The notes under the pieces were generated by a model, which saw only the letters and a list, made by a program, of their open reading frames with translations, was not told the DNA's origin and ran no database searches. From Acidobacteriota bacterium (GTDB lineage: Bacteria; Acidobacteriota; Terriglobia; Acidiferrales; UBA7541), in contig JABCZR010000004.1 of NCBI GenBank assembly GCA_013289585.1, forward strand, positions 1 to 64,000: a DNA stretch of 64,000 nt, written 5' to 3'. Positions 24,530 through 61,352 of this stretch are shown here, piece by piece (position 1 is the first letter of the stretch; the number at the start of each line of letters is the position of its first letter). A program made the position numbers and the translations under genes.

Positions 24530-24623
24530 CAAGCTCAAATGTGAATCTGGAATCATTCTGTGTAATTCGTGAGATTGTAGGGGGCGAAAGTTTTCATTTT
24601 GAAGAGGCGGTCGAGGTGAGTGC

Positions 24624-25718: not shown

Positions 25719-25749
25719 AGAAAGCTGGCAGAAGAAAAGGTGGGCGCCG

Positions 25750-26436
25750 ATGGATAAACAGCAGGTTCGGGATCGGATCATTGAAGTGGGAATTGTGCCG
25801 GTCGTGCGCGCGTCGTCGCCGGCGGAAGCACGTGTCGCGGCCGATGCTGTTTGTCAGGGTGGAATCCCCATCGTGGAGATCACCCTGACCGTGCCTGGTG
25901 CCGTCGAGGTCATCCGCGAGCTGGCAAAGAATAGTGCTGGTGATGTCCTGATCGGAGCTGGGACGGTGCTCAACGCGGATTCCGCGCGCCGGTGCCTGGA
26001 TGCGGGAGCACAATTCCTGGTCAGTCCTGGTTTGAATCTTCAGACTGTCGAACTCGCGGTGCGGGAGGGGAAGCTGATCATGGCCGGAGCGTTGACGCCC
26101 ACGGAAGTGATGGCTGCGTGGGAGGCGGGTGCCGACTTCGTCAAGGTTTTCCCGTGCGGCCAGGTAGGAGGAGCGAAATACATCAAGTGTCTGAGGGGAC
26201 CGTTCCCGCAGATTCCGTTTGTGCCGACCGGCGGGGTCGATCTGAAAACGGCGGGTGAATTCATCGAAGCGGGCGCCGCAGCGCTGGGAATCGGGGGAGA
26301 ATTGGTGCAGGCCGAGGCGCTGAAATCCAACAAACCGGAAATCATTGTTGAGAATGCGAAGAAATTCCTTGCGATTGTGAAGCAAGCGCGTGAGCAGATG
26401 AAGTTCCCGGATATGTCTGCCAAACGCAGCCACTAA
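25750..26436 (+). CDS. eda: KDPG/KHG aldolase
   Basis: The protein is 228 residues and starts 31 bp after the kinase. It splits 2-keto-3-deoxy-6-phosphogluconate into pyruvate and glyceraldehyde-3-phosphate by a Schiff-base mechanism. The general-acid Glu is in IPIVEITLTVPGA (Glu43). The Schiff-base Lys is in GADFVKVFP (Lys132). Phosphate-binding loops TGGVDLKTAGEFI and AALGIGGELV are intact. With manD, the MFS transporter and kdgK it completes the lower hexuronate pathway. Confidence 0.93.
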   Translation: MDKQQVRDRIIEVGIVPVVRASSPAEARVAADAVCQGGIPIVEITLTVPGAVEVIRELAKNSAGDVLIGAGTVLNADSARRCLDAGAQFLVSPGLNLQTVELAVREGKLIMAGALTPTEVMAAWEAGADFVKVFPCGQVGGAKYIKCLRGPFPQIPFVPTGGVDLKTAGEFIEAGAAALGIGGELVQAEALKSNKPEIIVENAKKFLAIVKQAREQMKFPDMSAKRSH

Positions 26437-26474
26437 GGGAAGATTGCAGAACTGTTTCTGCCGGCCGTGGCCCG

Positions 26475-27251
26475 TTATTGATTGACACCGCTGGCCATGA
26501 TGCCGCCATCCACTACCAGCAGGTGGCCGGTCACGAAGCTCGCGGAATCCGAGGCCAGAAACACCGCCGCTCCCACCAACTCTTCAGGCTTGCCGAACCT
26601 GTGCATCGGTGTGCGCATCAGGAACTCGCGGCCGCGTTCCGTACCGTCGAGAAGAGCCGCGTTCAAGTCCGTGCGCAAAACACCTGGGATGAGAGCATTC
26701 ACACAAACGCCCGAAGTTGCCCATTCGATCGCGAGCGATTTAGTGAGGGAAGCGACAGCCGCCTTGCTGGCGGCATAGGCAGCCACCTCATAGAGCCCGA
26801 CAAGCGAGGAAAGCGAGCCGATATTGATAATACGGCCGTAGCGCTCCTCGATCATGTGCCGTCCAAAGACGCGGCAAGCGCGCAAGGTCCCGTTCAGGTT
26901 CGTTTCCATGATGGCGTTCCATTCAGCTTCGGGAACCTCAAGGGTGGGCATGCGCATGATGCGGCCGGCGCAGTTCACGAGGATTTGAACGCTGTTGAAC
27001 TCCGTGCAAACGGACTGCAGGAGCCGTTCGACGCTGGCGACGTCAGTAACGTCGCAAGTCTGGGCCAGGGAGCGGCGCCCGAGCGCCGCAACCTCGGCGG
27101 AGGCGGCTTGCACAAGTTCTTTGCGGCGGCCTGTCGGTATGACATTGGCCCCAGCCTGTGCCAGACCGCGAGCGAGAGCCAGCCCGATGCCGCTGGTTCC
27201 ACCGATAACCACTGCCGTCTTGTTCGTCAGATCGAGAAGCGGATGCCCCAT
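26475..27251 (-). CDS. short-chain dehydrogenase/reductase, possible fructuronate/gluconate-type oxidoreductase
   Basis: The protein is 258 residues, classical SDR length. The cofactor motif is TAVVIGGTSGIGLALARGL; the NNAG equivalent is VNCAGRIMRM; the catalytic Ser is in INIGSLSSLVG and the YxxxK motif in AAYAASKAAVASL. The C-terminus VVDGGIMASG is typical. It converges on the aldolase gene. Members with this look include gluconate 5-dehydrogenase, KduD-type enzymes and SDR-type mannonate oxidoreductases. As no UxuB/UxaB is present nearby, it might produce mannonate for ManD, but that is inference from position only. Confidence 0.85.
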   Translation of the reverse strand: MGHPLLDLTNKTAVVIGGTSGIGLALARGLAQAGANVIPTGRRKELVQAASAEVAALGRRSLAQTCDVTDVASVERLLQSVCTEFNSVQILVNCAGRIMRMPTLEVPEAEWNAIMETNLNGTLRACRVFGRHMIEERYGRIINIGSLSSLVGLYEVAAYAASKAAVASLTKSLAIEWATSGVCVNALIPGVLRTDLNAALLDGTERGREFLMRTPMHRFGKPEELVGAAVFLASDSASFVTGHLLVVDGGIMASGVNQ

Positions 27252-27576: not shown

Positions 27577-29502
27577 ATGGGTGGAAACCGGAAACTGCCA
27601 TTCGCGACGCTGATCGGGGCGGCCCTTGCTGCGATTGCTCTGGGAGGCGTTTTTGTCGGATGGCGCGCATCGCGAGCTTTACATCAGTCTGCGCAAGAGG
27701 TTCATTCCGAGCGGGAGATTCGCTTCCAGGTGCGGCCGTTTTTGCCTCCCGGCAATGTGAGTTTTGAGGCCGTAAGCTCGCCCGATGTTTTCCTCCGGGC
27801 CGGGCGCTTCCAGAATCATCTTTATATCGCCGGGCCCGCGGGGCTCTCCGAATACGATGTAGGCGGCATCTTGCTTCGGCAGTTTGAAGTGGGGAGAGAA
27901 CTGCCGTCTTCCCCGCTGGTGGACATGGCGGTAGGCACTCTCGGGGATTCGGCGGAGCCGGAACTCATCCTGGGTACTGCGGCGGAGGGGATCCTGGCCT
28001 TCGACGGAAGGCGATTCCGGCAAATCTATGCGGCAGACGCCGAGGCGCGATCCATTACTGCCATCCTGCCCGTGTCCGCAGGGCATTTGCTGATCGGCAC
28101 AAAGAGGCGAGGCGTACTTCTCTACGACGGCAAGCAGATTCGGGAACTGCATCCGACGCTGAGCAATCTCTACGTTCAAGTGCTGGCGGGGAGTGAAGTG
28201 GACTTGTGGGTTGGCACGTTGAGCCAAGGCGTACTGCACTGGCACGCCGGTACCAGTGAATCGTTTGGCGAAGAGCAAGGACTGCCAGACCGGCAAGTGC
28301 AGGCGATCGCCCTTGCCGGTGACAAGAGCTACGTTGGGACACCCGTGGGAGTGGCCGAATTCGATCGTGGACGATTCTCGCGAGTGCTCAGAGCAGGCTT
28401 ACTGGTTACTTCGATCCTTGTGAATGGCGACGACTTGCTCGTTGGCACGGAGGATCAAGGCGTCGTACGCGTTCCCCTCGCCGCCAGGCGGCCTAGTCTC
28501 AACGCGCAAGGGGCCACAAAACTCGCGGAGGTGCAACGGTTTCTTGGGACCGCCGACGGGGTATACGTCTTAACGCGCAACGGCTTGTTCGAACTGCCGG
28601 CGCATGGATTTGGGTGGAGAGAGGTCTTGAAGCCCCGTCCGGCGGTTCTGAGCGATCGAAATATCTCGGCGCTGGCGGCGGACAAGGACGGCCAACTGTG
28701 GATCGGCTACTTCGACCGCGGGCTCGATCTCTTGCCAAGCGCTTCCACGCGGGTCCTGCATGTCGAGAATGAACACGTCTTCTGCGTGAACAGGATCTGG
28801 CCGGATGCGAAATCTGGGACAGTGGCAGTGGCCACCGCGAATGGCCTCATTCGCATGGGAGCTTCGGGCAGCCAGGAACAGGTGCTAACCCGTGCGGATG
28901 GACTCATCGCCGACCACGTCACGGACGTTGCGCCGTACCACGATGGCTTGGCGATCGCCACGCCGGCAGGGCTGACATTTCTCGACTCCAATGGCGCGCG
29001 CAGCATGTACGCGTTTCACGGCCTCGTAAACAATCACGTTTACGCTCTGGGAGTTTCCGGCGACGACCTGATGGTGGGGACGCTAGGCGGCTTATCTGAA
29101 ATTGGCCGGGGAGAGATTCGCACGAACTACACAGCCGGCGCATCCGGACTCAAACAGAACTGGATTACCGCGGTTGTTCCCGTGGGCGACGAATGGATGG
29201 TGGGAACGTACGGGAGCGGGATCATGGGATTGGACCGCGCCGGGCGGTTCCATGCATTTGAGAAAGCAACCGCAGAAGTGGAAATCAATCCTAACGCCAT
29301 GCTGGTAACGGCGCGTCTGGTTCTTGCCGGGACGCTGGGAGACGGCCTGTATGTCTATGACCGTGAAAAAGGGCGCTGGTCGGTAATCCATGAGGGGTTG
29401 CCTTCACTGAACGTCACGGCGCTGGCCGAGAGCAAAGGATATATCTACGTTGGGACAGACAACGGGCTGGCGCGAATTCAGGAACCGAGACTGCAGCCAT
29501 GA
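27577..29502 (+). CDS. membrane-anchored beta-propeller protein
   Basis: The protein is 641 residues. One membrane span near the start (ATLIGAALAAIALGGVFVGW, about 9-30) anchors it, with the rest outside. The body is made of short repeats of about 40-45 residues with the pattern 'ltal...dg.lwvGT..gGl..y'. Examples are LLIGTKRRGVLLYDGK, LWVGTLSQGVLHW, SYVGTPVGVAEFDRG, LLVGTEDQGVVRV, LWIGYFDRGLDLL, LMVGTLGGLSEIGRG, WMVGTYGSGIMGLDR and YVGTDNGLARI. This is the propeller of two-component-type ligand sensors, but no kinase or DNA-binding part follows. It probably acts as a periplasmic sensor or scaffold for the following genes. Its stop overlaps the next start (ATGA). Confidence 0.82.
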   Translation: MGGNRKLPFATLIGAALAAIALGGVFVGWRASRALHQSAQEVHSEREIRFQVRPFLPPGNVSFEAVSSPDVFLRAGRFQNHLYIAGPAGLSEYDVGGILLRQFEVGRELPSSPLVDMAVGTLGDSAEPELILGTAAEGILAFDGRRFRQIYAADAEARSITAILPVSAGHLLIGTKRRGVLLYDGKQIRELHPTLSNLYVQVLAGSEVDLWVGTLSQGVLHWHAGTSESFGEEQGLPDRQVQAIALAGDKSYVGTPVGVAEFDRGRFSRVLRAGLLVTSILVNGDDLLVGTEDQGVVRVPLAARRPSLNAQGATKLAEVQRFLGTADGVYVLTRNGLFELPAHGFGWREVLKPRPAVLSDRNISALAADKDGQLWIGYFDRGLDLLPSASTRVLHVENEHVFCVNRIWPDAKSGTVAVATANGLIRMGASGSQEQVLTRADGLIADHVTDVAPYHDGLAIATPAGLTFLDSNGARSMYAFHGLVNNHVYALGVSGDDLMVGTLGGLSEIGRGEIRTNYTAGASGLKQNWITAVVPVGDEWMVGTYGSGIMGLDRAGRFHAFEKATAEVEINPNAMLVTARLVLAGTLGDGLYVYDREKGRWSVIHEGLPSLNVTALAESKGYIYVGTDNGLARIQEPRLQP

Positions 29503-31886
29503 ACAAAACATTCGCCACGATTTTCTCCCTGTTAATCACACCTATCCTGGCGTTTGCGGACGGCGGAGTACTGATTCCGCGAGACAAAGCGCAACCCGAT
29601 TCCGCGATTCTCTCCCTGGAAGAGATGGAAATTACCGTGCAGATCGACAACGGCGACGCCCGCGTTTTTGTGCGGCAGGTGTTTGCGAATCACACGGCTT
29701 CGATTGAAGAGGGCAATTATGTGTTCGCGCTGCCGACGCGGGCCACGGTTTCCGATTTCGCCGTCTGGGACGGACCCACGCGAATTCCCGCGGTGATCCT
29801 GGAGCGCAAACGCGCCGAAGAGATTTACAACCAGTTGAAACAACAGTCCATCGATCCGGGACTGTTGCAGATGGGAGAGCGTGACGCGGAGGAGGCCAAG
29901 CGCAGCGCCATCTTCAGCGCACGCATTGTGCCGATTCCCGCGTACGGCACGAAGCGTCTGGAATTCGAGTATCACGAATCGATCCCAGTTGAAAATCTCA
30001 AGTCGTACTTCGCGATCCCATTGCGGCCGGACGCCTACCAAGCGCAGGCCGCCAGGCATCTTCGCATCAACTTCGAACTCCGCTCCGCCCATGCCATGAA
30101 CAACTTTCAAGCTGCCGCGAAAGCATTTCCGCTCAAACTCGATGAAAATTCGCCGCACCTGATCAAGGGCCACTTCGAAGGGCAAAACGTCAGCTTGACG
30201 GAAGATTTTGTGGCCACTTTCGACCTGGATCGGGCCGGGACCGATACGCTCCAGGTGATTACGCACAGGAATCCTATAAGCGCTCAGCCTTCTCCCACGG
30301 AGACAGCTCCGATTCGAAGCAACAATGAACCCGGTTTCTTTGCGGCGGAAACTCTGTTGGGCAGCGGGAAGAGCCGGAGCTCGGCGTCCGGAGACACGGC
30401 CAAGGATGCCGGCGGCTCGAAAACTTTGATCATCCTTTTGGACACCTCGCTCTCCATGCAGTGGGAAAAGCTGGAGCGAAGTTATCAGGCGCTGGAGACG
30501 CTTCTGCGAACGCTGAAACCGGACGACAAGTTCAACCTGATTCTCTTCAACAGCCAGACGCAGAGCTTTCAGCCCGCTCCCATCCTGGCGGACAGCGCGG
30601 CCATTCAACGGGCACTTGATTTGGTGCGGGCGAGCAGGTTGCGCGGCGGTACGGACTTGCAACGAGCCCTGGACGAGGGATTGCGGCAATCTTCGAATTC
30701 CGCCGGAAAGCTGTATCTCGTGCTGCTGAGCGACGGCGGAGCGACCCGCGGCACCATTCAGAATGGCAAGCTGGCGGCGTGGTATGAGACTGCCTGGAAG
30801 CGTCTTCCGGAAGCCAGCCGCCCGAAGACTTACATCTTTGGCGTGGGTGACGATGCGAATCTGCCATTGCTGAAGATGCTGGCTCGCGAGGATGGAGTGC
30901 TGGAAAGCGTGCTCTCGACGGAGCCAATAGACTTCAAGCTGAGTTCATTCCTTTCCAAGATCGGCCGGAGCCCAGTTGGCCAGTTGCAACTCAACATAAC
31001 GCCGGAAACAGCAGTGGATTCCTTGTACGCGCTGCAGGATTCCGCATTTGCCGGTTCGATGGCCACGTGGGTCGGGCGGTTTCAGAAAGCACAGCCAGAT
31101 ACGGCGTTTACCGTTCGCGGCGTGCGCGATGGCGAACCCTTTGTGATTTCCACGAAAGTGAATCTTCCGCGCGAATCTCTCGATCACCCGCAGCTTCCTC
31201 GTTTGTGGGCGCGCGCCCGTGTGGATGCGTTGCTGGAAAAAATCCAAAGGGAAGGCGAAGACCAGGCCTCGATCGACGAGATCATCCGGCTGGCGCGGCA
31301 GTACAAGTTTGTAACGCCCTATACTTCATTTCTTGCTGTGCCGCGCGCGTTGCTGAGGCCCAGGGTGATTCGCCCGGGTGACCCGGTACTGCGTGTGAAA
31401 ACTGATGAATCCATCGTTTCGGTGGTCGCGCTCTTCCCGTTCGGGCTGGTCCAGAAACTCCGGTACCTGTCCGACGAAGACACCTGGCAAACGCGATTTT
31501 TTGCGCCAAAAGATATGCAGGACGGAACGTACAGCGTGCGGCTTGTTTTGCGGAATCGCGCCGGGCACACGTATCGAGAAGCAAAAACGTTTGTCATCGC
31601 CAGCAAAACGCCGATTGTACAAATCAAGCTGGACCAGAAGCGTTACCGGCGTGGACAGGTGTTGGACCTGAAAGTGGCTGCGTCTCAGAGCACGCGGACG
31701 CTGGTGGCTCGCCTGGAGGGAGCGGCTCCCGTTGGGCTGAAGTGGGATTCAAAGGCGGGAGTGAATACGGGGCAATTGTTTATTCCCAACCAAATGATTC
31801 CCGGAACGTATCGGCTCACGGTCACCGCAGAAGATATTGCTCACAACATGGGATCCCAGGGGGTGGACATTGAAATCGTTCCGTGA
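29499..31886 (+). CDS. exported VIT-domain and von Willebrand A-domain protein
   Basis: The protein is 795 residues with signal peptide MNKTFATIFSLLITPILAFA. Residues about 25-155 form the VIT domain (VFVRQVFANHTA, then YVFALPTRATVSDF). Residues about 305-480 form a von Willebrand A domain with an intact metal site DTSLS (Asp315, Ser317, Ser319) plus GGTDL and LSDGG loops. The C-terminal about 170 residues look Ig- or macroglobulin-like (DGTYSVRLVLRNRAGHTYRE, then IPGTYRLTVTAEDIAHN). VIT plus VWA pairs mediate protein-protein contacts outside the cytoplasm. It is coupled to the propeller gene by a 4-base overlap and to the giant TPR gene by a 17-base overlap. Confidence 0.9.
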   Translation: MNKTFATIFSLLITPILAFADGGVLIPRDKAQPDSAILSLEEMEITVQIDNGDARVFVRQVFANHTASIEEGNYVFALPTRATVSDFAVWDGPTRIPAVILERKRAEEIYNQLKQQSIDPGLLQMGERDAEEAKRSAIFSARIVPIPAYGTKRLEFEYHESIPVENLKSYFAIPLRPDAYQAQAARHLRINFELRSAHAMNNFQAAAKAFPLKLDENSPHLIKGHFEGQNVSLTEDFVATFDLDRAGTDTLQVITHRNPISAQPSPTETAPIRSNNEPGFFAAETLLGSGKSRSSASGDTAKDAGGSKTLIILLDTSLSMQWEKLERSYQALETLLRTLKPDDKFNLILFNSQTQSFQPAPILADSAAIQRALDLVRASRLRGGTDLQRALDEGLRQSSNSAGKLYLVLLSDGGATRGTIQNGKLAAWYETAWKRLPEASRPKTYIFGVGDDANLPLLKMLAREDGVLESVLSTEPIDFKLSSFLSKIGRSPVGQLQLNITPETAVDSLYALQDSAFAGSMATWVGRFQKAQPDTAFTVRGVRDGEPFVISTKVNLPRESLDHPQLPRLWARARVDALLEKIQREGEDQASIDEIIRLARQYKFVTPYTSFLAVPRALLRPRVIRPGDPVLRVKTDESIVSVVALFPFGLVQKLRYLSDEDTWQTRFFAPKDMQDGTYSVRLVLRNRAGHTYREAKTFVIASKTPIVQIKLDQKRYRRGQVLDLKVAASQSTRTLVARLEGAAPVGLKWDSKAGVNTGQLFIPNQMIPGTYRLTVTAEDIAHNMGSQGVDIEIVP

Positions 31887-34800
31887 TTTCTCACCCAAAA
31901 GTCGCGTGTGGTTTGCGGGAGCCGTTCTGGCGCTGGTGGCTGCAGGCTGGGCGGTGACCGCAAGAGGCGCGCTGCCTTACTGGATCCTCAACGTTGAAGC
32001 AGGAACGGCAATCGAACGCGTGTTTTTCCGCATGATGGCTCTTCCCTACGGCAATGCGCTCTTCCGCAGGCCTCCGGCGGAAACGCGGCCTGCGCTCGGG
32101 GAGCTTATTCAGCAGAAACCGGCGGACGCCGAGCTCTATTCCCTGCGGGGATTGGAAGATGAGCAGCAACTGGACTTCGCTGCCGCGGAATCCGATTGGA
32201 AGATGAACGTGGAAAAATCGGCCGACAAAACAGCCGCGCAACTTGCTCTCGCGGATTTTTACCATCGCAGGCTGCGGCCACAGGATGAAATCGCAGAACT
32301 CTCGATTGTGGCCAGCGGCCCTGCGGACGCTGCCGAAAATCTTCTATCTGCGGGTGAGCAGCGGTCCTGGCGCGCGTTCGAACGCATTTTCGCCATTATC
32401 CAGACGCAAGGCCTTTCGAAAGAGGTGTCGATCGCGAAGTACCGCGCCTGGATTGCCCGGTACCCGAAAGAGCCGCAACTCTACTCGCGCTTCCTGGCGT
32501 ATCTGATCAGCCAGATGGAATTCAGCGCCGCAAATCAATTGATCGCCGACTATCAGAAACAGTTTCCCGGCGACGAAATTTTCCAGGTGAAGGCCAAGGC
32601 TCTGGTTGACTACCGCCAGGGATCCATACAACAAGGCCTCGCCGTGTATGAAAAAAGTTTTCAGCCGCTCTGGGACCCGGAGCTGGTGAAAAGCTATTTT
32701 GAACTTCTTGGACAGACGCAGAATCTGCGCAAGTTTCTCGATGAGTCTCGCGCCGCGCTCAATGCGAATCCGGAAGATTTGAGGGCGACCGCGCGCGTCT
32801 TCTATTACTATCAGCAGCAAGGAAAGCTGGACGCCGCCCAGCAAGCCATCACGACTTTGCGTTTGCACAAGGAAGCGGCCAAGTCCAACTGGACGCCGGA
32901 AGAACTTTATGTCTGCGGTCGTCTGCTGGAGGACATCCATTCCTACCCCGAGGCCGCGCGGTATTACTTTGCGCTCTACAACAGCAAAGGAGCGAACGAC
33001 TCGCAGCAGCGCGCACTCAGCCGCCTGACGCATTTGCTGCTCACCGCCCCAGAGACGCCCATACGTCTGGGGAGCGGGGAACTGTCCATGTACAAAGATA
33101 TCGCCACGCTGGATCAGGGCCCAGGCTATTTGAACGGAATCCTCTCCTTGATCTTGAACACGACCGGTCCCGCAAGCGAGTACTCGGAGGAAGAGCGGCG
33201 CGCGGTCCCTTACTTTCATCGTTCGCGTGCCGCTGAACTGCTTGCCTTGCTGGACAAAAACTTCCCGGAAGCGACAAGCCGCCCGGAACTCCATGCAAAA
33301 CTGCTGGATTTTTATTCCAGCAATGCAAAAAGCGATGCCGTGCTGAAGGGCGGCAAGGAATTCCTGGCAACATTTCCGAAGGCTTCCGAGCGCACCACGG
33401 TGGCACTGCTCATGGCGGACGCGGATGCGAGGCTCGGCAGGTCGCAGGATGAATTCGCAATCTACGACGCCATCCTGCAGGAACTGGCTGCTAAAGCGGA
33501 CCGAATCCCGCTCGGTGTGCGTGCCGCCGCAGTGGACGAATTCAACCAGCAACCGGGCGCCTATTTTCCAGAAGCAGCGGATAGCGAAGCGGGCGACGAC
33601 TCCGCGAATTCGAACGATCGCGGAAGTGGAAGCATCCGAGTGCACGGGGCCGAGCAGAGCGCCGCTTTCCGATTGAAAACAGCGCAAGTCACCGCCGATG
33701 GAGGACCGCGATCGCCTGAATATTCTCGAGTTCTCGAGCGTTACCTGGCCCGGCTGGTCGAATTGAAGGAGATTCCGCAAGCTCTGGGCGTGCTCCGCCG
33801 CGAAATCGATCACAATCCCGCCGACCCCGGACTGTACGAGCGGCTGGCGGTTTTTCTGGAGCAGAACAAGCTTGGCACGGAACAGGAAGAGATCTACCGG
33901 AGAGCCATCGCCCGATTTCCGGAGCGCTCCTGGTATGCCAAACTGGCGCGATATTACCTGAGATACAAAAAAAATGTGGAATTCGAAAAGCTCACGCAGG
34001 AAGCCGTTAAACAATTCGACGGCAGCGCGCTGCCGAATTACTTTCAATCCGTTGTTGGCGGAACCCCGGAGATGTACGTCCGGCTGAATCAGTATGCGAA
34101 CATGCGGTTTCCGCACAATCTCTACTTCGTGAACAACCTGCTCCAGGCGTATCACAGCAGGCCAACCTGGAATCAAGCGGCATGGGAGGCGTTGCTGCGC
34201 CAACACTGGTTTGAAGAATCCGAACTGCGCAACGAGTATTTCGAGTTCCTGAGTTTTCACGGGATGCTCGAAGCGGAATTGAATACCTTGCGACAGTCGG
34301 CTCCTCCCCAGGACAAGGGCAGTTGGGAGGAATTTGTCCGCAAGAATCCGGCCGCGGGCCAATACCTCGCGCAGGCTGAGCTCTGGCGTTCTCACTTTGA
34401 AGAGGGCGCGCCGGTGCTGAAGGCGCTGGCCGGCGAGTATCCTGCGGAACCGGAACTCGGCCGGACGGCGTCTTCCGTGTTTCGTTCTCTCGCGTACTTC
34501 GAGCCCGGTGATACGAATGTGGCCGTGAAGATTGAGGGAAACTTGCTGGCCGCAAATCCCGGCAGCACGGAAATTCTTGCGCGAATTGGAGATATCTATT
34601 CAGACCGGGATCTTTTCGGGGAAGCAGCTCCGTACTGGGAGCGTATTCCCAAGGTCGCGCCGGGAGAATCGGGGGGTTACCTGGAAGCGGCTGCCATTTA
34701 CTGGGATTACTATGATTTTGACAACGCGCTGCGGCTTCTCGAAGAGGGACGGAAAAAACTCGGGAATAAAGATCTTTATGGATACGAAGAAGGGGCGATC

Positions 34801-37800
34801 TATGAAGGCAAGCGCGATTATCCCAATGCGATTCGCGAATATGCGAACGCCGCGCTGACGGCCGGAGGCGAATCGCCCGCATTGAACCGGCTTCTGGAGC
34901 TGGCACGCCGGCCCAAATTCCGCGAGCTGATCAACCAGGAGACGGAGAGGCTGGCGAACGCTTCTCGATACGCGATGCCGGCCGTGAACCTGCGCGTGCG
35001 CGTGCTGGAGACGGAGAACCGCAAGCCGGAATTGGTGGAATTCCTTGATGCAGCGGTCGCCAACGCGGCGACGATCGAACAAGCGGCGGAGATCGAGGCT
35101 CTTGCACAACAGAAATCTCTGGAAAGCGTGCGGCAGCATGCCTTGGAAAAGCAGGCCGCGCTAGCGACGGATCCCGTCACGCGATTGCAGTTGCGCTATG
35201 CCCTCGTGCGTCTTTATGAAAGCCGGAAGGATTTTACTTTGGCCCAGAGAAATATCGAAGTTTTGTACCGGGAGAATACAAAGATTCTCGGTGTGGTGCG
35301 TGCCACGGTTGATTTCTACTGGCGGGTGAAACTCTATCCGCAAGCCATTGCTGTTCTGGAGCAAGCGGCGAAAGACGCCTATCCGGAACTTGGCAAACAG
35401 TTCACCTTCGAAGCGGCGCGAAAATCCACCGAGGCGCACCGGTACGTACAGGCGCGCGGCTTACTCGAGCCGCTGTTGAAGGATGCTCCTTATGACAGCC
35501 AGTATCTGGCGGCGATGGCCGACACCTTCGCGCAAGCCGGCGACCAGCAGGGATTGAAGCAGTTTTACCTGGACAAGATCGCGTTATTCCGAACCGCTCC
35601 GCTCTCTCCTGATGACCGGAAAAACAGGATCGCCACGCTTCGCCGCGGGCTGATTCCCGCGCTGACCAAGCTGAAGGACTATACGGGCGCAGCCGACCAA
35701 TACATCGAGATCATCAACAACTTTCCGGAAGACGATGGGCTTGTGGCGGAAGCGGCGTTGTATTCCCTTCGCTACAAACGGCAAGCGCAGCTTGTCGATT
35801 TTTATGCCAAGACGGTCGTGCAGTCTCCGCGGGATTTCCGCTGGCCCATGGTGCTGGCGCGTATCCAGACGAGCCTGGAAAATTTCCCCGCGGCGATTGA
35901 CGCTTACGGGAAAGCCATCACGATTCGTCCCGACCGCACGGATTTGCACATCGCTCGCGCCACGCTTTCGGAGCGGTTGATGAGGTTTGACGATGCCGTC
36001 AACGACTACGAACGGATCTACCAGCTGGCGTACAAGGACCCGAAGTGCATGGAGAAAATCGCCGAAGTGCGCGCGCGGCAGGGCAAGAATGAGGAAGCAG
36101 TGGCGGCGCTTAAGACCGCTCTGATCGATGTGGGCCTCGAACGCGCGGAAAACTATTTTGAAGTAGCCCGCCGATTGGAGGGCTGGGGAATCCTGGAGCA
36201 GGCGCGGTCGTTCGCGGAGCAGGGTGTCAATAGCGCCGGCGGCGAACTTCTCGCATCCACTCAATATCACGAAGGAGCGAAACTCTATACGCGGATCATG
36301 ACGCGCCTTCGCCAGCAGGAGAAAGCGTATGCGACGCTTCGAACGGCGCTCGCTGCCGCTTCTTCCTCGCTTCCGGTCGTCAAAGAGCAGGTGGCTAAAG
36401 AGGGGATTGCCGGAATTTCCGATAAGGAATGGCGCGAGCACACTCTGCAAGTTCGCAAGAGCAACGCGAACAACGGCATGACGGGAGCTCTGACCGAAAT
36501 GGGTTCGGTTGTGGCGCGTTATTTCACTCCGGAGGAAAAAGTTCTGTTTGCTGGATTTGGGCAGGGACTTCGCACGCCGATGAATTTCGAAGAGGCCAAC
36601 CTATTTGCCTTCCCACTTGCCCACAGCGCCGATCTCGCCGAATTAGAAGTCCGTTGGCGTTACGAATTCATGATGACCGCCCCGGCGAATACCACAGTTC
36701 TCCTAGGACAAATGTCCAGCCTCATCGAACTCCAGCGGAAGCGGCTGAAGTTTGCGGAACTTGGCTCGCAGTTGGAACGCTTTGCTCCTCGCGTTGCGGC
36801 CGGAGCCGGTGTTTTCCCCGCCGCCGCGGAAGCCTATCGTGCCGCAGGCGATTCCGAGAACGATTTGCGCATGCTTTCAAGTATCTCCCCGATTTATCTT
36901 GGCGGTGAAGTGCAGAAACACTTTTTTGAACTGCTTCTCGAAAAACATCCGCAGCGGCTCGTGGAGCTCGCCTCTTTTTGGAATCCAGTTGGGGAACAGG
37001 CTGCAGATTTTGCCGTCGCAAACGGGGACGCACAGCTGGCACATGCAGTGGTCGCTGCCCGAGGTGGCCCGAGGCCGGCGGTGTGGAGAAAATCCTACCT
37101 GGCGCTCGTGGGGCTTTATTTCGCGGAGACTTCCCCGGCGGTCAACAACGCCTTTCTCAACGCGCTCGGCGATGCGCCGATCGGAGAACGTCTTGGCAAA
37201 ACCGTAGACCGCGACGCGCAGCTCGCCGGCGACGTCTGGTTTTACTATGGATCGCGCTACGGCGAATATTTGGGAGATACCAGACAGGACGCGCCCGAAG
37301 ATTACTTGCCTGCGTTATTAGAGCAAAGCCCCGCCTCCTCGTCCGGCTATCAAACGCTTGCTGATTACTACGCCGAGAGCGGCGACACGCGTTCCGCAAT
37401 TGCAGACTACAAGCACGCGCTGGAACTGTCGCCGGGCCACGCAGACGTTCACGAGCGGCTTGCCCTGGCTTATTACAAAGACGGCAAGCGCGCCGAAGCC
37501 ATTGCCGAATGGAAACTCGCTTTTTCCATTTTGTTGAAACAAGTGAATAGCGCGCGAGTGCAGGAAAGTTTTTGGTCCGATTTCTCCCGGGCTTGCTACG
37601 ATCTTCACTCACGGCGCCTGTTCGCTGCACTGAAGCCGGAAGTGGACGGCGTGGTGCGCGCGTACCTCAGCCGCGACGGCAACTACCGCTCGAACGCGAT
37701 ACTGCGCAGCAGCTATACGGCTATGGGCGATCCCGCCGCGGCGACCACCTGGCTTCTGGATGTATCCTCATCCAGCCCGGCCTCCATTTCCGTCCTGGCT

Positions 37801-39303
37801 GATGTTGTGGACGCGCAATGGATTCCTCTGGCGCAACGCGGGCCAATCTACCAGCGAATCCTGGAAGGCAATCAAAAGGAGCTCGCCAGAACGGAAGGCC
37901 TCGAACGGGAGAACGCACAGAGCGGACTACGCTCATGGCAGATTCGCTGGATACGATACCTGATCGAGACGAAACAGTTCCGCCAAGCGGGCGATTCTAT
38001 CGACGCACTCCAGAGAGAATCGCAATCCTTAGATGCATCCGCGCTTGTTCCGTTCGAACTGCGAATTGCCGCCCAAGCCGGTACTCTGGATGAAAAAATT
38101 TCAGAGTACCGGTCCGATCCTGAAAATGCGCCGAGTGCGGAGACCTTGAGAGCCGCGGCGCGGCAAATCTTTGAATTCGGAGACAAACAGTCCGCCCGCA
38201 AGATCCTAGAGTTCGTTTTTGCACGCGATCTCGACGAGCACAAACTGGTTGCGGCAAATTTCCTTGGCCTTGCGGAGATTCGCATTGCCGCAGGCGATAC
38301 GCCAGGCGCCGTGGTGCTTCTCAAGCGTCTCGTGGCTGTTGCGGGCGATCCGTATCAGAACATGGATTCGGCGGCAGCGCTTTTGGAGAAGACCGGGCAC
38401 AATGCGGAAGCTCTCGGGTTTCTCGGTCCATTGGTCAATTCCACTCCCTGGGAACCGGCGTATCACCTGCGCCTGGCTAAAGCGCAAATCTCCGCGAAGA
38501 CGGATGCGAATATTGCGCGAGACGGTCTGGCGAGAATTGCTACGGCTTCGCAGAATCCGTACAACTATCGTGTCGATGCCGCGCTGGTCCTTTCCGGCTC
38601 CCGACAAGCGGCAGATTTTGGCAGCGCGGAGTTGAAGCTTCTCGCCGGGGATTCCAGGAGCGTTACACTCACTGCCGCCGATCATCCGTTTTTTTATGAT
38701 GCGCGCGTAAAGGCGGCGCAAAACTCCGGCAACCCGCACCAGAAAATGCAAATATTGACAAAAGCTCTGGAGGACACGCCCGGGCGGGACGATGCTCGAA
38801 TTCCGTTGTTTCATGCCGCTGTTGCCGTGCATTCCGATGAGTTCGCCCTGGGGTCCATTGAACAAGTGCTGCGCGACCAGCGGTTCCGCCAGGTGGCCTC
38901 AAATGACACCAGCAACGAAGAAGAGATTCTGAATTCCGATCCGAGCATGGAAGAGCAGGATGAAGAGCTCTCACCACTTTACGGCGCGACAAAATTGCTG
39001 CCTGCAGAGCAGGCGCAACTTGCGGAGGCGGTTGGGCTGATTTTCGTCCGACTCCAGCGCTTCAACGAGGCACTTACCTATTTACAGGCGGCTCGAACGT
39101 TCGAAAAAACTCCCGCGCGGCGAAAAGTCCTTGCTGGAGAGATCAGCGACGCGAAAGCGCGGCTGCGACGCCAGCAGCTCAACGCCGCTAGGCAGCCCAT
39201 ACTTCATGCGGAGCTGGAGCAGGACCGTCTGGTGCGGCCGCGGCTTGTGACGCACGCAACAGCTTCCGCAAAGCCAGCCGCAACGTCTGGAGAAAGACAA
39301 TGA
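31870..39303 (+). CDS. giant TPR-repeat envelope protein (about 2477 residues)
   Basis: A TTG at 31870 with AGGGGGTGG just upstream is the best start. An ATG at 31837 in the same frame would overlap the VIT gene by 50 bases and has no good site. One membrane span lies at the N-terminus (VWFAGAVLALVAAGWAVTA). The rest is a long superhelix of TPR-like helix pairs. Recognisable units include PADAELYSLRGLEDEQQLDF, TEILARIGDIYSDRDLFGEA, FPAAIDAYGKAITIRPDRTD and DTRSAIADYKHALELSPGHA. One acidic low-complexity linker lies at about 575-605 (DSEAGDDSANSNDRGSGS). No catalytic domain is seen. A repeat protein of this length could span tens of nanometres and act as a scaffold for the transpeptidase and SpoIID proteins encoded after it. 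It is coupled to the next gene (ATGA). Confidence 0.87.
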   Translation: MKSFRDFSPKSRVWFAGAVLALVAAGWAVTARGALPYWILNVEAGTAIERVFFRMMALPYGNALFRRPPAETRPALGELIQQKPADAELYSLRGLEDEQQLDFAAAESDWKMNVEKSADKTAAQLALADFYHRRLRPQDEIAELSIVASGPADAAENLLSAGEQRSWRAFERIFAIIQTQGLSKEVSIAKYRAWIARYPKEPQLYSRFLAYLISQMEFSAANQLIADYQKQFPGDEIFQVKAKALVDYRQGSIQQGLAVYEKSFQPLWDPELVKSYFELLGQTQNLRKFLDESRAALNANPEDLRATARVFYYYQQQGKLDAAQQAITTLRLHKEAAKSNWTPEELYVCGRLLEDIHSYPEAARYYFALYNSKGANDSQQRALSRLTHLLLTAPETPIRLGSGELSMYKDIATLDQGPGYLNGILSLILNTTGPASEYSEEERRAVPYFHRSRAAELLALLDKNFPEATSRPELHAKLLDFYSSNAKSDAVLKGGKEFLATFPKASERTTVALLMADADARLGRSQDEFAIYDAILQELAAKADRIPLGVRAAAVDEFNQQPGAYFPEAADSEAGDDSANSNDRGSGSIRVHGAEQSAAFRLKTAQVTADGGPRSPEYSRVLERYLARLVELKEIPQALGVLRREIDHNPADPGLYERLAVFLEQNKLGTEQEEIYRRAIARFPERSWYAKLARYYLRYKKNVEFEKLTQEAVKQFDGSALPNYFQSVVGGTPEMYVRLNQYANMRFPHNLYFVNNLLQAYHSRPTWNQAAWEALLRQHWFEESELRNEYFEFLSFHGMLEAELNTLRQSAPPQDKGSWEEFVRKNPAAGQYLAQAELWRSHFEEGAPVLKALAGEYPAEPELGRTASSVFRSLAYFEPGDTNVAVKIEGNLLAANPGSTEILARIGDIYSDRDLFGEAAPYWERIPKVAPGESGGYLEAAAIYWDYYDFDNALRLLEEGRKKLGNKDLYGYEEGAIYEGKRDYPNAIREYANAALTAGGESPALNRLLELARRPKFRELINQETERLANASRYAMPAVNLRVRVLETENRKPELVEFLDAAVANAATIEQAAEIEALAQQKSLESVRQHALEKQAALATDPVTRLQLRYALVRLYESRKDFTLAQRNIEVLYRENTKILGVVRATVDFYWRVKLYPQAIAVLEQAAKDAYPELGKQFTFEAARKSTEAHRYVQARGLLEPLLKDAPYDSQYLAAMADTFAQAGDQQGLKQFYLDKIALFRTAPLSPDDRKNRIATLRRGLIPALTKLKDYTGAADQYIEIINNFPEDDGLVAEAALYSLRYKRQAQLVDFYAKTVVQSPRDFRWPMVLARIQTSLENFPAAIDAYGKAITIRPDRTDLHIARATLSERLMRFDDAVNDYERIYQLAYKDPKCMEKIAEVRARQGKNEEAVAALKTALIDVGLERAENYFEVARRLEGWGILEQARSFAEQGVNSAGGELLASTQYHEGAKLYTRIMTRLRQQEKAYATLRTALAAASSSLPVVKEQVAKEGIAGISDKEWREHTLQVRKSNANNGMTGALTEMGSVVARYFTPEEKVLFAGFGQGLRTPMNFEEANLFAFPLAHSADLAELEVRWRYEFMMTAPANTTVLLGQMSSLIELQRKRLKFAELGSQLERFAPRVAAGAGVFPAAAEAYRAAGDSENDLRMLSSISPIYLGGEVQKHFFELLLEKHPQRLVELASFWNPVGEQAADFAVANGDAQLAHAVVAARGGPRPAVWRKSYLALVGLYFAETSPAVNNAFLNALGDAPIGERLGKTVDRDAQLAGDVWFYYGSRYGEYLGDTRQDAPEDYLPALLEQSPASSSGYQTLADYYAESGDTRSAIADYKHALELSPGHADVHERLALAYYKDGKRAEAIAEWKLAFSILLKQVNSARVQESFWSDFSRACYDLHSRRLFAALKPEVDGVVRAYLSRDGNYRSNAILRSSYTAMGDPAAATTWLLDVSSSSPASISVLADVVDAQWIPLAQRGPIYQRILEGNQKELARTEGLERENAQSGLRSWQIRWIRYLIETKQFRQAGDSIDALQRESQSLDASALVPFELRIAAQAGTLDEKISEYRSDPENAPSAETLRAAARQIFEFGDKQSARKILEFVFARDLDEHKLVAANFLGLAEIRIAAGDTPGAVVLLKRLVAVAGDPYQNMDSAAALLEKTGHNAEALGFLGPLVNSTPWEPAYHLRLAKAQISAKTDANIARDGLARIATASQNPYNYRVDAALVLSGSRQAADFGSAELKLLAGDSRSVTLTAADHPFFYDARVKAAQNSGNPHQKMQILTKALEDTPGRDDARIPLFHAAVAVHSDEFALGSIEQVLRDQRFRQVASNDTSNEEEILNSDPSMEEQDEELSPLYGATKLLPAEQAQLAEAVGLIFVRLQRFNEALTYLQAARTFEKTPARRKVLAGEISDAKARLRRQQLNAARQPILHAELEQDRLVRPRLVTHATASAKPAATSGERQ

Positions 39304-41006
39304 AACGCGCGATCCTTCTAGTTCTCATCACGGCAGCGTGCATTGGCGCGAGCTGGGGAGCCTATCAGGCGGCTTCATCATTGCAAACCGCGGCTCCGCC
39401 ACTTTCCCGCTTTGTCCCCTCGGGGGCTTTGCTCTATCTCCAGGCCAAGGACTTCTCCTCGCTGCTATCGGATTGGGACAAATCCGGCGAGAAACAAATC
39501 TGGCTGAAGAGCAATAACTACGAGGTGTTTTCACGTTCGCGGCTCTTCCTTCGCCTGAAGGACGCGAGCAATGAATTTTCGACCGCAGCCGGCATTCCCC
39601 CGGATACGAAACTGCTCCGTCAGGTCGCTGGCCGACAGAGTGCGCTGGCCATCTTCGATATCGGAAAACTTGAGTTCCTCTACATCACGCGGTTGCCTTC
39701 GGCCAGTTCCATGCAATCCGCCCTGTGGCAGACGCGTTCGAAGTTTGAAACGCGCAGTGCGGGCGGTGCGACATTCTTCCTACGGCGCGATCCGGAGTCA
39801 GGGAGGGAAGTCGCCTTCGGCGTCGCCGGGGACTATTTGCTCCTTGCTACGCGAGAGGACTTGTTGGCCGGTGCGCTGCAGCTTCTGGCGAGCGGCGATG
39901 CGCGTTCGATAGAGACGGAACCGTGGTGGTCACATTCCGTTGCTGCAGCGCCTGCGGAAGGCGATTTGCGAATGGTCTTAAATCTCGAAAAAATTGTGCC
40001 AAGCCCCTATTTTCGCTCTTACTGGGTCCAACAAAATATCACCGACATGAAGCAATACTCCGCAGCAATCTCCGACCTGATTCGTTCTGGAAAGGAATAC
40101 CGGGAAGAGCGGGTTCTTCTGCGGAAAACACCCGCAACCGGCGACGCCTCTGGGAACGGAGGGCCGGCCGGTGTCGCGGATATTTTGCGCCTGGTTCCTG
40201 CACAAGCCGGAGTCTATGAGGCGAAGGCGAACCCGACACCGGCGGATAGCCTTGCGCTCATCGAAACCAAGATTCTCGCACCGCACCTGGGGCCGGGCGT
40301 CGCGGAAAAGCTCGCGCCGGAAGTTCAACTCAACGGTGGAGAGACGGGCTCGAGCACGGATTTGGAGACGCGCATCGATCAGCCTCCAGTGAAGGCTTCC
40401 GTCGCGGTCGATAGTGCTGCACCTCTCCAGGATCTGCTCGCCGGGAATCCGGTTTCGGCTGTGTTGCAGATACAATCCACGGAACTGGACAAGGATGGAG
40501 TCTTTGTCCGCATTCATTCCGCGGTGGTATTGCTGGGCCAGTCGGACTGGAATGAATCGGCTGTGCGTTCGTCGCTCGTTGATTTTGTACGTCCCAGCTT
40601 CACCACGGGATTGCTGGGGGTCGAGTGGCAGAAGAATTCCGGGTATATCGAACTCAATGGCCTGTGGAGGCTGGCTGCGGCAGCGCGAGGAAAGTATCTG
40701 TTCATTTCCGACAATTCGGATTTGCTTATCGCCTTGCTGGCCAACACGAATCAAAAGCCGACACTGACGCCCGCCGTTTTTGCAGCAAGATTCGATCATC
40801 AGCGGGAAAGAGAAAATTTCGGACGCTTGACGGGACTCCTGGATAAGCCTAACGGTAGCGCAGGGGCGGGAAGCGCTCCGGATTTCTTCTCCGAAAATAT
40901 CGGCAGCCTGAGTCTTGCGCTCGCCGGCGTGTCCTCAGAAAAAATCATAGTTCGCGACCTAGGCGACAGGGTAAATCAGACGGTCACGTACCAATGGGTT
41001 CGTTAA
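39300..41006 (+). CDS. membrane-anchored protein, DUF3352/DUF2138-like
   Basis: The protein is 568 residues. Its ATG overlaps the giant TPR stop by four bases. An N-terminal signal or anchor (AILLVLITAACIGASWGAY) is followed by PPLSRFVPSGALLYLQAKDFSSLLSDW, the characteristic opening of DUF3352/DUF2138-type proteins ('vP.dal.yl...d...ll..w'). Later FGVAGDYLLLATREDLLAGAL and ARGKYLFISDNSDLLIALL repeat a 'gdyLvias..dll' pattern twice, pointing to two related halves. The length is close to that of E. coli YfaA (DUF2138) as I remember it. No catalytic motif is seen. It is predicted to be periplasmic and to belong with the transpeptidase-like gene, which overlaps its 3' end by 13 bases. Confidence 0.72.
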   Translation: MKRAILLVLITAACIGASWGAYQAASSLQTAAPPLSRFVPSGALLYLQAKDFSSLLSDWDKSGEKQIWLKSNNYEVFSRSRLFLRLKDASNEFSTAAGIPPDTKLLRQVAGRQSALAIFDIGKLEFLYITRLPSASSMQSALWQTRSKFETRSAGGATFFLRRDPESGREVAFGVAGDYLLLATREDLLAGALQLLASGDARSIETEPWWSHSVAAAPAEGDLRMVLNLEKIVPSPYFRSYWVQQNITDMKQYSAAISDLIRSGKEYREERVLLRKTPATGDASGNGGPAGVADILRLVPAQAGVYEAKANPTPADSLALIETKILAPHLGPGVAEKLAPEVQLNGGETGSSTDLETRIDQPPVKASVAVDSAAPLQDLLAGNPVSAVLQIQSTELDKDGVFVRIHSAVVLLGQSDWNESAVRSSLVDFVRPSFTTGLLGVEWQKNSGYIELNGLWRLAAAARGKYLFISDNSDLLIALLANTNQKPTLTPAVFAARFDHQRERENFGRLTGLLDKPNGSAGAGSAPDFFSENIGSLSLALAGVSSEKIIVRDLGDRVNQTVTYQWVR

Positions 41007-41857
41007 TCAAGGCTGGCGTAGCCTCGTACCTTTCGTTGCTGCTTCTCGCTTGCTCGCTTGGCTCCCATCCGGCGCAGTCCGCATCCGCCACGCCGCCTCG
41101 TACTCTCTTTTCGCAATCGGCCGTCGAGGTCTTGGAACGTGATTTCTCGGGGAGCAGTGTCTCCTATCTGTTGCTCGATGCGAATTCAGGCGCACTGCTG
41201 GCGAGTCAATGGGAACACTATGACAATCCCGTTCCACTGGGGTCCCTGGTGAAACCGTTTGCGGCTCTCGCCTACGCTGGAGCGCATGAATTTCGCTACC
41301 CCGCCTATGAATGCAAAGGCCAGTCGAGCGGTTGCTGGCAAGTGCATGCTCACGGAAAACTGGATATCGTTTCAGCCATTTCTGCTTCCTGTAACTCTTA
41401 TTTTCTTTCATTGGCTGAGAGTGTCACTGCAGAGCAGCTTCTACCTGTAACTAGAGCTTACGGACTGGAATCCCCTGACCCGGATTTCACCAGGTCGAGC
41501 CTCATCGGTCTCGGTGAACGATGGAGGGTTTCGCCAATACGGATGGCGCGTGCGTACCTCGAACTGTATCGCCGGCGCACCCAGCCCGGTGTTCGGGAAA
41601 TATTGGCCGGGATGCTGCAATCGGAGCAGCGCGGAACCGGCGCAGCCGTTGGCCGCGGGCTGAAGCATTCAGACGCGTTCGTAAAGACGGGGACCGCGCC
41701 ATGCATGCACGCATTGCGGGCGCCCGCCGACGGATTTGTCATAGCTTTGGTGCCTGCTCAACAGCCAGAGATTCTTCTGATGATCCGAGTTCACGGAGTC
41801 GCGGGAGCTAAGGCCGCGGAAACCGCCGGCCGCATGCTAAGCCGGATGGAGGAATAG
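40994..41857 (+). CDS. minimal penicillin-binding-protein-like transpeptidase lipoprotein (DUF2300 N-half type)
   Basis: The protein is 287 residues. A lipobox (SLLLLAC, Cys20) suggests a lipoprotein. All three motifs of serine penicillin-binding enzymes are present in order: SLVK (Ser84-Lys87), SCN (Ser132-Asn134) and KTG (Lys231-Gly233). The whole domain is only about 230 residues, smaller than normal transpeptidase domains. The stretch PLGSLVKPFAALAYAG, then ECKGQSSGC, then SASCNSYF resembles the first half of DUF2300 proteins as I remember them. In those proteins a SpoIID-like half follows in the same chain; here it is a separate gene starting five bases after the stop. Action on peptidoglycan peptides in the periplasm is inferred; a beta-lactam-binding but inactive protein is possible. 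Confidence 0.78.
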   Translation: MGSLIKAGVASYLSLLLLACSLGSHPAQSASATPPRTLFSQSAVEVLERDFSGSSVSYLLLDANSGALLASQWEHYDNPVPLGSLVKPFAALAYAGAHEFRYPAYECKGQSSGCWQVHAHGKLDIVSAISASCNSYFLSLAESVTAEQLLPVTRAYGLESPDPDFTRSSLIGLGERWRVSPIRMARAYLELYRRRTQPGVREILAGMLQSEQRGTGAAVGRGLKHSDAFVKTGTAPCMHALRAPADGFVIALVPAQQPEILLMIRVHGVAGAKAAETAGRMLSRMEE

Positions 41858-41861
41858 GCGC

Positions 41862-42962
41862 GTGCGCTGGAAGTGGATGCTGTTCCTTTTCTCCGCTCTA
41901 CTGAGCAGTTCATTGGCGAACGCACAAAATGTTCGAATTGGAGTGCTTGGAATCTTCCATCCTCGTCAGCTCGATCTTACTTCCGGCAATGGCAACGCAA
42001 TCGTCGTGACTGCCGCCGGCAAGACTTTTTTTCTGCAGCCGGGATCGCCTGCCGGCAATCTTCAAATTCACGCTTCCGGAAACGAGTTGTTCCTGAAAAT
42101 CGCGGACAAGGAGTTACATGCAAGCGAGATTCACGCCGCGGGACGCAATCAGGACGCCACGGATTTCATGCTAAGTGTGCCCGGAAAGATCGAGCGACGC
42201 TATCGGGGAACTCTCGACGTCAAAGTCGTGGATAGCGAACTGGTCCCGGTGGTCACGATGGATCTCGAGACCGCGGTGGCTTCCGTGGTGCAAGCCGAAT
42301 CGCTCGCCGGCACTTCTTTCGAAGCATTGAAGGCGCAAGCAGTGGTGACGCGCTCGTATCTTGTCGCTGGAGGCGGGCGTCACGCGGAGTTTGATTTCTG
42401 CGATCTCACGCACTGCCAGTCTCTGCAAGAAGCGCCGCGACCCGGGAGCCCGGCCGCGCTCGCTACGGAGGCGACGCGAGACCTCATAATTACCTTTGAC
42501 GAAAAAGCTGTGGCGGCCATGTTCACGCGCAGCTGCGGAGGCCATACTCTCACCCCCGCCGATATTGGCATCTCTTCCCGCGGGTATCCGTATTTTTCCG
42601 TCGATTGCGATTTCTGCCACAAAAATCCCGTACGCTGGAGCCGGGGTCTCTCGCGGGAAGATGCCGCGATTCTTTCCGATCATCATGAAGCCGCGCGATT
42701 GTCTGTGGATAGGCGGCTTGGTTGGAACGCGATCCCTAGCAACAATTTCAAAGCGCGCGAAACCGAAACCGAAATTGTTTTGCAAGGTGTTGGACAGGGA
42801 CACGGCGTCGGACTCTGCCAGCGCGGCGCAAGGGCCATGGCCGAAGAAGGCGCGGACTTTCGCAAAATCATCGACCATTACTTTCCGAACACCACTCTTG
42901 TCCGGCGCGCCGCCCTTACCGTTCCAATCCAGCTGGATCGCAAACTAGCTTTGCCAGATTGA
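41862..42962 (+). CDS. SpoIID/LytB-domain protein (DUF2300 C-half type)
   Basis: GTG at 41862 with GGAGGA upstream gives 366 residues. Signal peptide: WMLFLFSALLSSSLANAQ. SpoIID-family proteins are peptidoglycan lytic transglycosylases or their helpers. The core is clear: MDLETAVASVVQAESLAG, FEALKAQAVVTRSYL (Glu146 takes the place of the catalytic Glu of SpoIID), FCDLTHCQ, FTRSCGGHTL and GQGHGVGLCQRGARAMAEEG near the C-terminus. The gene sits directly behind the transpeptidase-like gene, so one strand-cutting and one peptide-acting enzyme are co-produced. This is not a sporulation context; no other spo gene is in the window. Confidence 0.9.
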   Translation: MRWKWMLFLFSALLSSSLANAQNVRIGVLGIFHPRQLDLTSGNGNAIVVTAAGKTFFLQPGSPAGNLQIHASGNELFLKIADKELHASEIHAAGRNQDATDFMLSVPGKIERRYRGTLDVKVVDSELVPVVTMDLETAVASVVQAESLAGTSFEALKAQAVVTRSYLVAGGGRHAEFDFCDLTHCQSLQEAPRPGSPAALATEATRDLIITFDEKAVAAMFTRSCGGHTLTPADIGISSRGYPYFSVDCDFCHKNPVRWSRGLSREDAAILSDHHEAARLSVDRRLGWNAIPSNNFKARETETEIVLQGVGQGHGVGLCQRGARAMAEEGADFRKIIDHYFPNTTLVRRAALTVPIQLDRKLALPD

Positions 42963-43112
42963 TTTCGGCGGCAGCATCATGGCGATTCCGTCCAACTCCA
43001 AGGCCAGCGTCAAAGTTTTGTTGCTTGCCTGAGCGGAGGGTCAATGGCAGTTTATCTGGAGACGGTCCGGCATTTCGCGCGTTCGAATGGCGGGCATCGT
43101 GGGGAGGCATTT

Positions 43113-61204: not shown

Positions 61205-61212
61205 CGAAATTC

Positions 61213-61306
61213 AATTTGCAGGCAAGGGAAGCGGGGAAGGCCGTGTGAATCGGCCGCGGTCCCGCCACTGTAATCGGCTGAAAAGCCGTAAGCCAGGCCA
61301 CCCTCT
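61213..61306 (+). promoter_or_regulatory. cobalamin (B12) riboswitch
   Basis: The leader shows the conserved B12-element parts in order: AAGGGAAGCGGGG, GTGTGAATC, then CGGTCCCGCCACTGTAA (with GCCACTG at 61264-61270), a small hairpin GGCTG AAAA GCC, and GCCAGGCCACC near the end. It sits between a strong promoter and a terminator ahead of btuF. Binding of adenosylcobalamin should favour the terminator and shut off B12 uptake. Confidence 0.93.
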
Positions 61307-61352
61307 CATGCCGCAGAGTGCTCCGCTCTTCGCGAGAAAGAGCGACGCCGAA

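Follow-up and report, generated by a model that had tools for sequence, protein, structure and literature searches.

What does a compact run of six genes for envelope proteins do in an Acidobacteriota bacterium, and is it related to the type II macroglobulin operon known as mag in Pseudomonas aeruginosa and as yfa in Escherichia coli? The question is raised by positions 27577-42962 of the first 64,000 nucleotides of contig JABCZR010000004.1 (assembly GCA_013289585.1), that is, the stretch analyzed in this work and hereafter called the window. According to a first-pass annotation, made from the letters of the window, these genes (A to F, in order) would represent a yfa-like cluster without alpha-2-macroglobulin, in which the DUF2300 protein (YfaQ) is split in two, a 568-residue protein corresponds to DUF2138 (YfaA), and a VIT-VWA protein plus a giant TPR protein take the place of the macroglobulin. 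Our analysis confirmed the six coupled genes, which are conserved widely, and showed that A, B, C, and D are a core kept together in a fixed order. Furthermore, profile comparison supported E and F as counterparts of the first and the second part of YfaQ, respectively; by the tests made, the operon would be distantly linked to mag/yfa and not a member of it.

The open reading frame (ORF) scan of the window returned six successive frames on the + strand, exactly where they had been placed. Gene A (27577..29502) codes for a membrane-anchored beta-propeller of 641 residues with Reg_prop repeats (PF07494, E 4.4e-12), gene B (29499..31886) for an exported VIT-VWA protein of 795 residues with a C-terminal Ig-like region (PF08487, E 4.2e-18; PF13768, E 3.9e-12), and gene C (31870..39303) for a giant membrane-anchored TPR protein of 2477 residues, matching TPR families in Pfam. 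Gene D (39300..41006) codes for a membrane-anchored protein of 568 residues without any match in Pfam or NCBIfam, whose AlphaFold2 model contains alpha/beta domains; gene E (40994..41857) codes for a small, stand-alone transpeptidase-fold protein of 287 residues (PF00905, 40.2 bits with a cut-off of 22.1), and gene F (41862..42962), which starts with GTG, for a SpoIID/LytB-type protein of 366 residues (PF08486, E 1.4e-13; TIGR02669, 134.9 bits). This domain content is the one originally described, the VIT and SpoIID assignments having held when searched with PF08487 and PF08486, respectively, and the coupling of the genes, with overlaps of 4, 17, 4, and 13 bases, was borne out as well; the last gap, between E and F, spans four bases (41858-41861) and not five as claimed. 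The length of C holds if the TTG codon at 31870 is used, the longest frame beginning at 31837; this codon is preceded by GGGGGTGG, a G-rich run resembling a ribosome-binding site. As for the export signals or anchors assigned to all six proteins, a strongly hydrophobic N-terminal segment was found in five of them, but none passed for F, whose signal peptide was assigned by eye only.

Concerning the distribution of the operon, D was matched in 11 of the 89 genomes of the same family; since one of these matches (genome G007, locus L022, E 8.3e-4) was judged from its frame to be a false positive, the count is 10 of 89. Throughout the phylum, 29 of 396 genomes gave a match to D. Among named genomes, 99 relatives were confirmed, the best 80 of which were kept, and all but two of these 80 are titled Acidobacteriota. 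The records L084 and L155, labelled Betaproteobacteria and Rhodanobacteraceae, carry operon genes and are probably mislabelled or mixed assemblies.

In the near relatives, the order A-B-C-D-E-F is kept as far as the contigs extend, with the exception of G047, which harbors A-D only; the same order is also present in other families of the phylum. The survey comprised 112 non-redundant loci, nine duplicates having been removed. C lies upstream of D in 103 of the 108 testable loci, B is present in 80 of the 82 loci having C, and A is found upstream in 29 of the 33 testable loci having C; moreover, the 4-base overlap between C and D recurs in 71 non-redundant loci (window included). The order kept in relatives across the phylum, together with this overlap, implies that the operon is not a product of chance, and the conservation of gene order that the first-pass annotation had anticipated was confirmed both at short range and across the phylum. 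The literature search retrieved no description of the job of this operon.

The last two genes code for the enzymes. E carries SLVK at residue 84, SCN at 132, and KTG at 231, the motifs known from class B penicillin-binding proteins (PBPs); among the 67 distinct members of its family, window included, SxxK and SCN are present in 67 and KTG in 62. E shares with class B PBPs (PBP2/SpoVD type) the transpeptidase domain with these three motifs, but it is merely 287 residues long, and its best NCBIfam match, PBP2, reaches 43.3 of 455 bits. It had been described as a transpeptidase-like lipoprotein: PF00905 and the motifs agree with the first half of this description, but a lipobox-like cysteine occurs in 5 of the 67 members (7 with a looser pattern) and is no family trait. 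F is over the cut-offs of both TIGR02669 (134.9 of 83.3 bits) and PF08486 (51.7 of 23 bits), far under that of the sporulation equivalog TIGR02870 (94.2 of 234.75 bits), and represents the sole PF08486 match in the genome. Glu146 and Cys225 of F are invariant in all 60 distinct members (window included); the conserved glutamate is catalytic in Bacillus subtilis SpoIID. F resembles the SpoIID/LytB lytic transglycosylases in profile scores and in the conserved glutamate, and differs from them in its coupling with a scaffold operon and with a transpeptidase that stands alone. A SpoIID homologue outside sporulation is reported to degrade peptidoglycan and to act as a lytic transglycosylase (PMC6635528). 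According to these sequence features, E and F both look active.

The relationship of E and F to YfaQ rests on profile comparisons. E. coli YfaQ contains PF10062 (DUF2300) in two stretches plus a SpoIID match. The profile of the E family aligned with YfaQ 42-199 (hhalign probability 92.3, E 5.5e-7) and that of the F family with YfaQ 183-398 (probability 95.0, E 4e-8). Moreover, E as a single sequence matches YfaQ (E 6.9e-5), unlike the other seven of the eight PF00905 proteins of the genome (best E 0.075). The PF10062 search itself gave no match in the genome, the E. coli control being positive. Hence, the proposed splitting of DUF2300 is supported as remote homology, because the two profiles match parts of YfaQ in order and the single-sequence control for E is specific, but it fails as membership of the PF10062 family.

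E and F are not present at every locus. Counting was limited to the 99 loci whose sequence extends 2.6 kb or more beyond D: both genes follow D in 55 of them, only E in 7, only F in 2, and neither in 35; in the loci listed, E usually begins a few bases before D ends. A tree of D was built with 99 rows (loci with less than 2.6 kb behind D were left out except L053, and so was L021; L161 was left out of alignment A4 for its stop codons). On this tree, the four states of E/F presence need 10 changes, compared to 36.5 in shuffles; therefore, E and F appear and disappear in blocks. A SpoIID search in eight genomes gave a match in six, and the core-only genomes G047 and G337 had none. One clade (L109, L111, L112, L136, L147, L148, and L151) harbors a shortened E of about 204-226 residues, with no F beside the core.

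Among the core proteins, B is well over the cut-offs of PF08487 (66 of 26.5 bits) and PF13768 (46.9 of 27 bits), and its metal ion-dependent adhesion site (MIDAS) is conserved: out of 87 distinct members including the window, 87 have DxSxS, 86 the threonine, and 87 the second aspartate. B is like the VIT-VWA proteins of the marine sortase target type (TIGR03788) in having VIT followed by VWA with a full MIDAS, but its score of 153.6 of 551.65 bits is far under the cut-off. A locus at L072:368-5146 harbors a tandem pair of propeller genes, one of them of 955 residues, before the VIT-VWA gene.

D could be compared through its model (pLDDT 83.9, pTM 0.79). The best structural neighbour is TP0453 (Z 11.1-11.8 over 205-218 residues, rmsd 4.5-5.0), with a Foldseek TM-score by query length of just 0.22-0.24, followed by PknH (Z 8.9 over 118 residues). 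Dip2269 (Z 8.0), TM1622 (6.9), Tsi3 (6.8), RseB/MucB (about 5-6), and DcrB (5.5) come next, and, according to the tool, values between 5 and 8 may reflect merely a common arrangement. Several of these neighbours are periplasmic ligand- or partner-binding domains. By structural comparison, the model may resemble TP0453/PknH-type or RseB/MucB-type periplasmic domains in parts, but the low query-length TM-score sets it apart and the PDB gave no support by sequence (one unrelated row, E 0.46). DUF3352 (PF11832) was absent from the D of the window and from its genome, and was found in one of 39 D-family members (E 4.5e-4); no paper naming DUF3352 was retrieved. At five loci (L058, L063, L064, L069, and L082), D occurs without C and sits elsewhere than in the core operon. 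Stand-alone D paralogues at L058:12375-16225 and L063:12291-15855 lie behind NfeD-like and SPFH-like genes (confirmed with Pfam in L058 alone), and the D-only loci L064, L069, and L082 belong to genomes of the same family, f34.

How close, then, is this operon to mag/yfa? Both are compact envelope operons, both include a partner of about 560 residues with an N-terminal hydrophobic helix, and YfaQ has its two parts matched by the profiles of E and F, respectively. The six-gene operon differs in lacking a macroglobulin gene and any match to DUF1175, DUF2135, DUF2138, or PF10062, and in adding a propeller, a VIT-VWA protein, and a TPR protein of 2,477 residues. The absence of alpha-2-macroglobulin is true of the operon, with no such family over cut-off in the six proteins, but not of the genome, whose one PF00207 match lies on another contig, unlinked to the operon, and carries the CAEQ thioester motif of type I. 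This single alpha-2-macroglobulin gene, of 2042 residues, is located at G000:C8:120742-121002 (L198:4837-10965). No paper joining any two of alpha-2-macroglobulin, DUF2300, and DUF2138 was found in the literature.

A further connection comes from DUF2135, the domain of YfaP, which has no match in the genome under study and is present in 5 of the 199 phylum genomes searched. In the four ORFs examined out of six matches, DUF2135 forms the C-terminal tail of a VIT-domain protein matching the B profile (L222:9890-13393, L223:9045-12323, L224:9597-12587, and L225:6697-9687); at E<=1e-5, none of these four was reported to match a VWA family. B has no DUF2135 tail. These fusions hint at a link of VIT proteins to the yfa/mag parts list that is independent of E and F. 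Together with a C-terminal, sub-threshold match of B to MG2 (PF01835; E 0.12, 13.2 bits with a cut-off of 32.8), they lend slight help to the idea that the VIT-VWA and TPR proteins may replace the macroglobulin.

As for the surroundings of the operon, simple patterns revealed neither a sigma-70-like site where it begins nor a terminator-like site directly behind it; the same scan listed a minus-strand terminator-like site at 27373-27357 and a plus-strand promoter-like site at 42951-42980. Upstream (23246-27251) lie genes for a major facilitator superfamily transporter, a PfkB sugar kinase, a 2-keto-3-deoxy-6-phosphogluconate aldolase, and a short-chain dehydrogenase, apparently a sugar-acid catabolic cluster. 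In ten stretches fetched from relatives, no match was obtained for the four neighbouring genes tested (24624, 25750, 26475, and 43044); in these stretches, the kinase, the aldolase, and the dehydrogenase had no match beside the operon. No tRNA was found within the window, and a cobalamin riboswitch over the Rfam gathering score is located at 61209-61323 (+).

On the whole, the reading that we favor, with a rough probability of 0.42, is that of a putative Acidobacteriota envelope complex in which an anchored scaffold recruits wall enzymes, in a mag/yfa-like fashion without membership in that system. C would be the periplasmic scaffold, anchored in the inner membrane; A, B (through the metal site of its MIDAS), and D may be binding or sensing subunits held by C. 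E would trim or cross-link stem peptides and F would cleave the glycan, probably in stripped strands; in this way, the complex would open, remodel, or repair peptidoglycan where the core marks it. The idea of an anchored scaffold bringing enzymes to chosen sites of the wall is proposed by analogy with the mag system: MagD is reported to form complexes with MagA, MagB, and MagF, MagB holding MagD at the inner membrane (PMC5764988), and P. aeruginosa without MagD is reported to be sensitive to some wall-targeting effectors of the type VI secretion system, not to all attackers (PMC12663445). Scaffold, sensing, and protection are steps that we infer.

Some data weigh against this reading. F as a single sequence has no match to YfaQ beyond the signal region (E 0.016), the family profile alone giving one. 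E and F are absent beside the core in 35 of the 99 loci, and G047 and G337 have no SpoIID match; for this reason, wall enzymes cannot be the whole function. PADLOC found no defence family (E<=0.01). Lastly, MagD is reported to give no protection against TseH or Burkholderia thailandensis (PMC12663445), and the role of the model system is accordingly partial.

A bolder version seems doubtful to us: the core would detect or grip wall damage, with exchangeable wall enzymes as effectors, and the operon would encode an envelope machine new to the literature and spread across Acidobacteriota, a macroglobulin-free counterpart of mag protecting these bacteria from wall attack.

Alternatively, the core might build a surface or secretion structure, E and F merely opening the wall locally for its passage. 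Assembly machines often include giant TPR proteins and VWA proteins, many of the 35 loci lacking E and F still hold the core, and A shows weak matches to PorZ (E 0.0085 and E 0.00089). These matches, however, fall well short of the curated cut-offs (16.8 of 27 bits and 17.8 of 260 bits, respectively), and the Pfam and NCBIfam scans of the six proteins listed no family of channels, secretins, sortases, or pilins. We regard this explanation as unlikely.

The original proposal in its full form, that is, a true mag/yfa system in which D is a diverged DUF2138 protein (YfaA/MagB), E and F are a split YfaQ, and the macroglobulin alone has been exchanged, appears improbable. From gene order, we take MagB to be the DUF2138 protein and MagE the DUF2300 one. 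Besides the YfaQ matches, D and YfaA are alike in length (568 and 562 residues) and in the N-terminal hydrophobic helix; hhalign gave a colinear alignment of 180 columns, which is not significant (E 0.033, probability 1.5), and the order of predicted secondary-structure elements was equalled in 4 of 100 element shuffles, a signal that is too weak and rests on a YfaA model of pLDDT just 33.5. On the other side, PF09909 (DUF2138) had no match in the genome, in the 396 genomes of the phylum (E. coli control positive), or among 39 D-family members at E<=1; column shuffles equalled or beat the D-YfaA profile score in 7 of 150 and in 2 of 100 cases, which is borderline at best; and DUF1175 and DUF2135 are absent among the six proteins. 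The identification of D as DUF2138 was not supported by sequence and is kept as a rival only.

Least probable of all is that E and F represent an ordinary pair of wall enzymes, linked to division or growth and lying by chance behind an unrelated scaffold operon. In its favor, A-D can persist without them, and SpoIID localizes at the division septum in Chlamydiales (PMC6635528). Against it, D is followed by both genes in 55 of 99 loci, over a wide distance, E usually overlaps D, and their presence clusters on the D tree.

The analysis names a conserved operon in an abundant and little-studied phylum, and offers an independent route to an open question, i.e., the role of the mag/yfa proteins besides the macroglobulin. 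Should a split YfaQ operate with a VIT-VWA/TPR scaffold in place of a macroglobulin, the two systems may have the wall-enzyme part in common as their working end.

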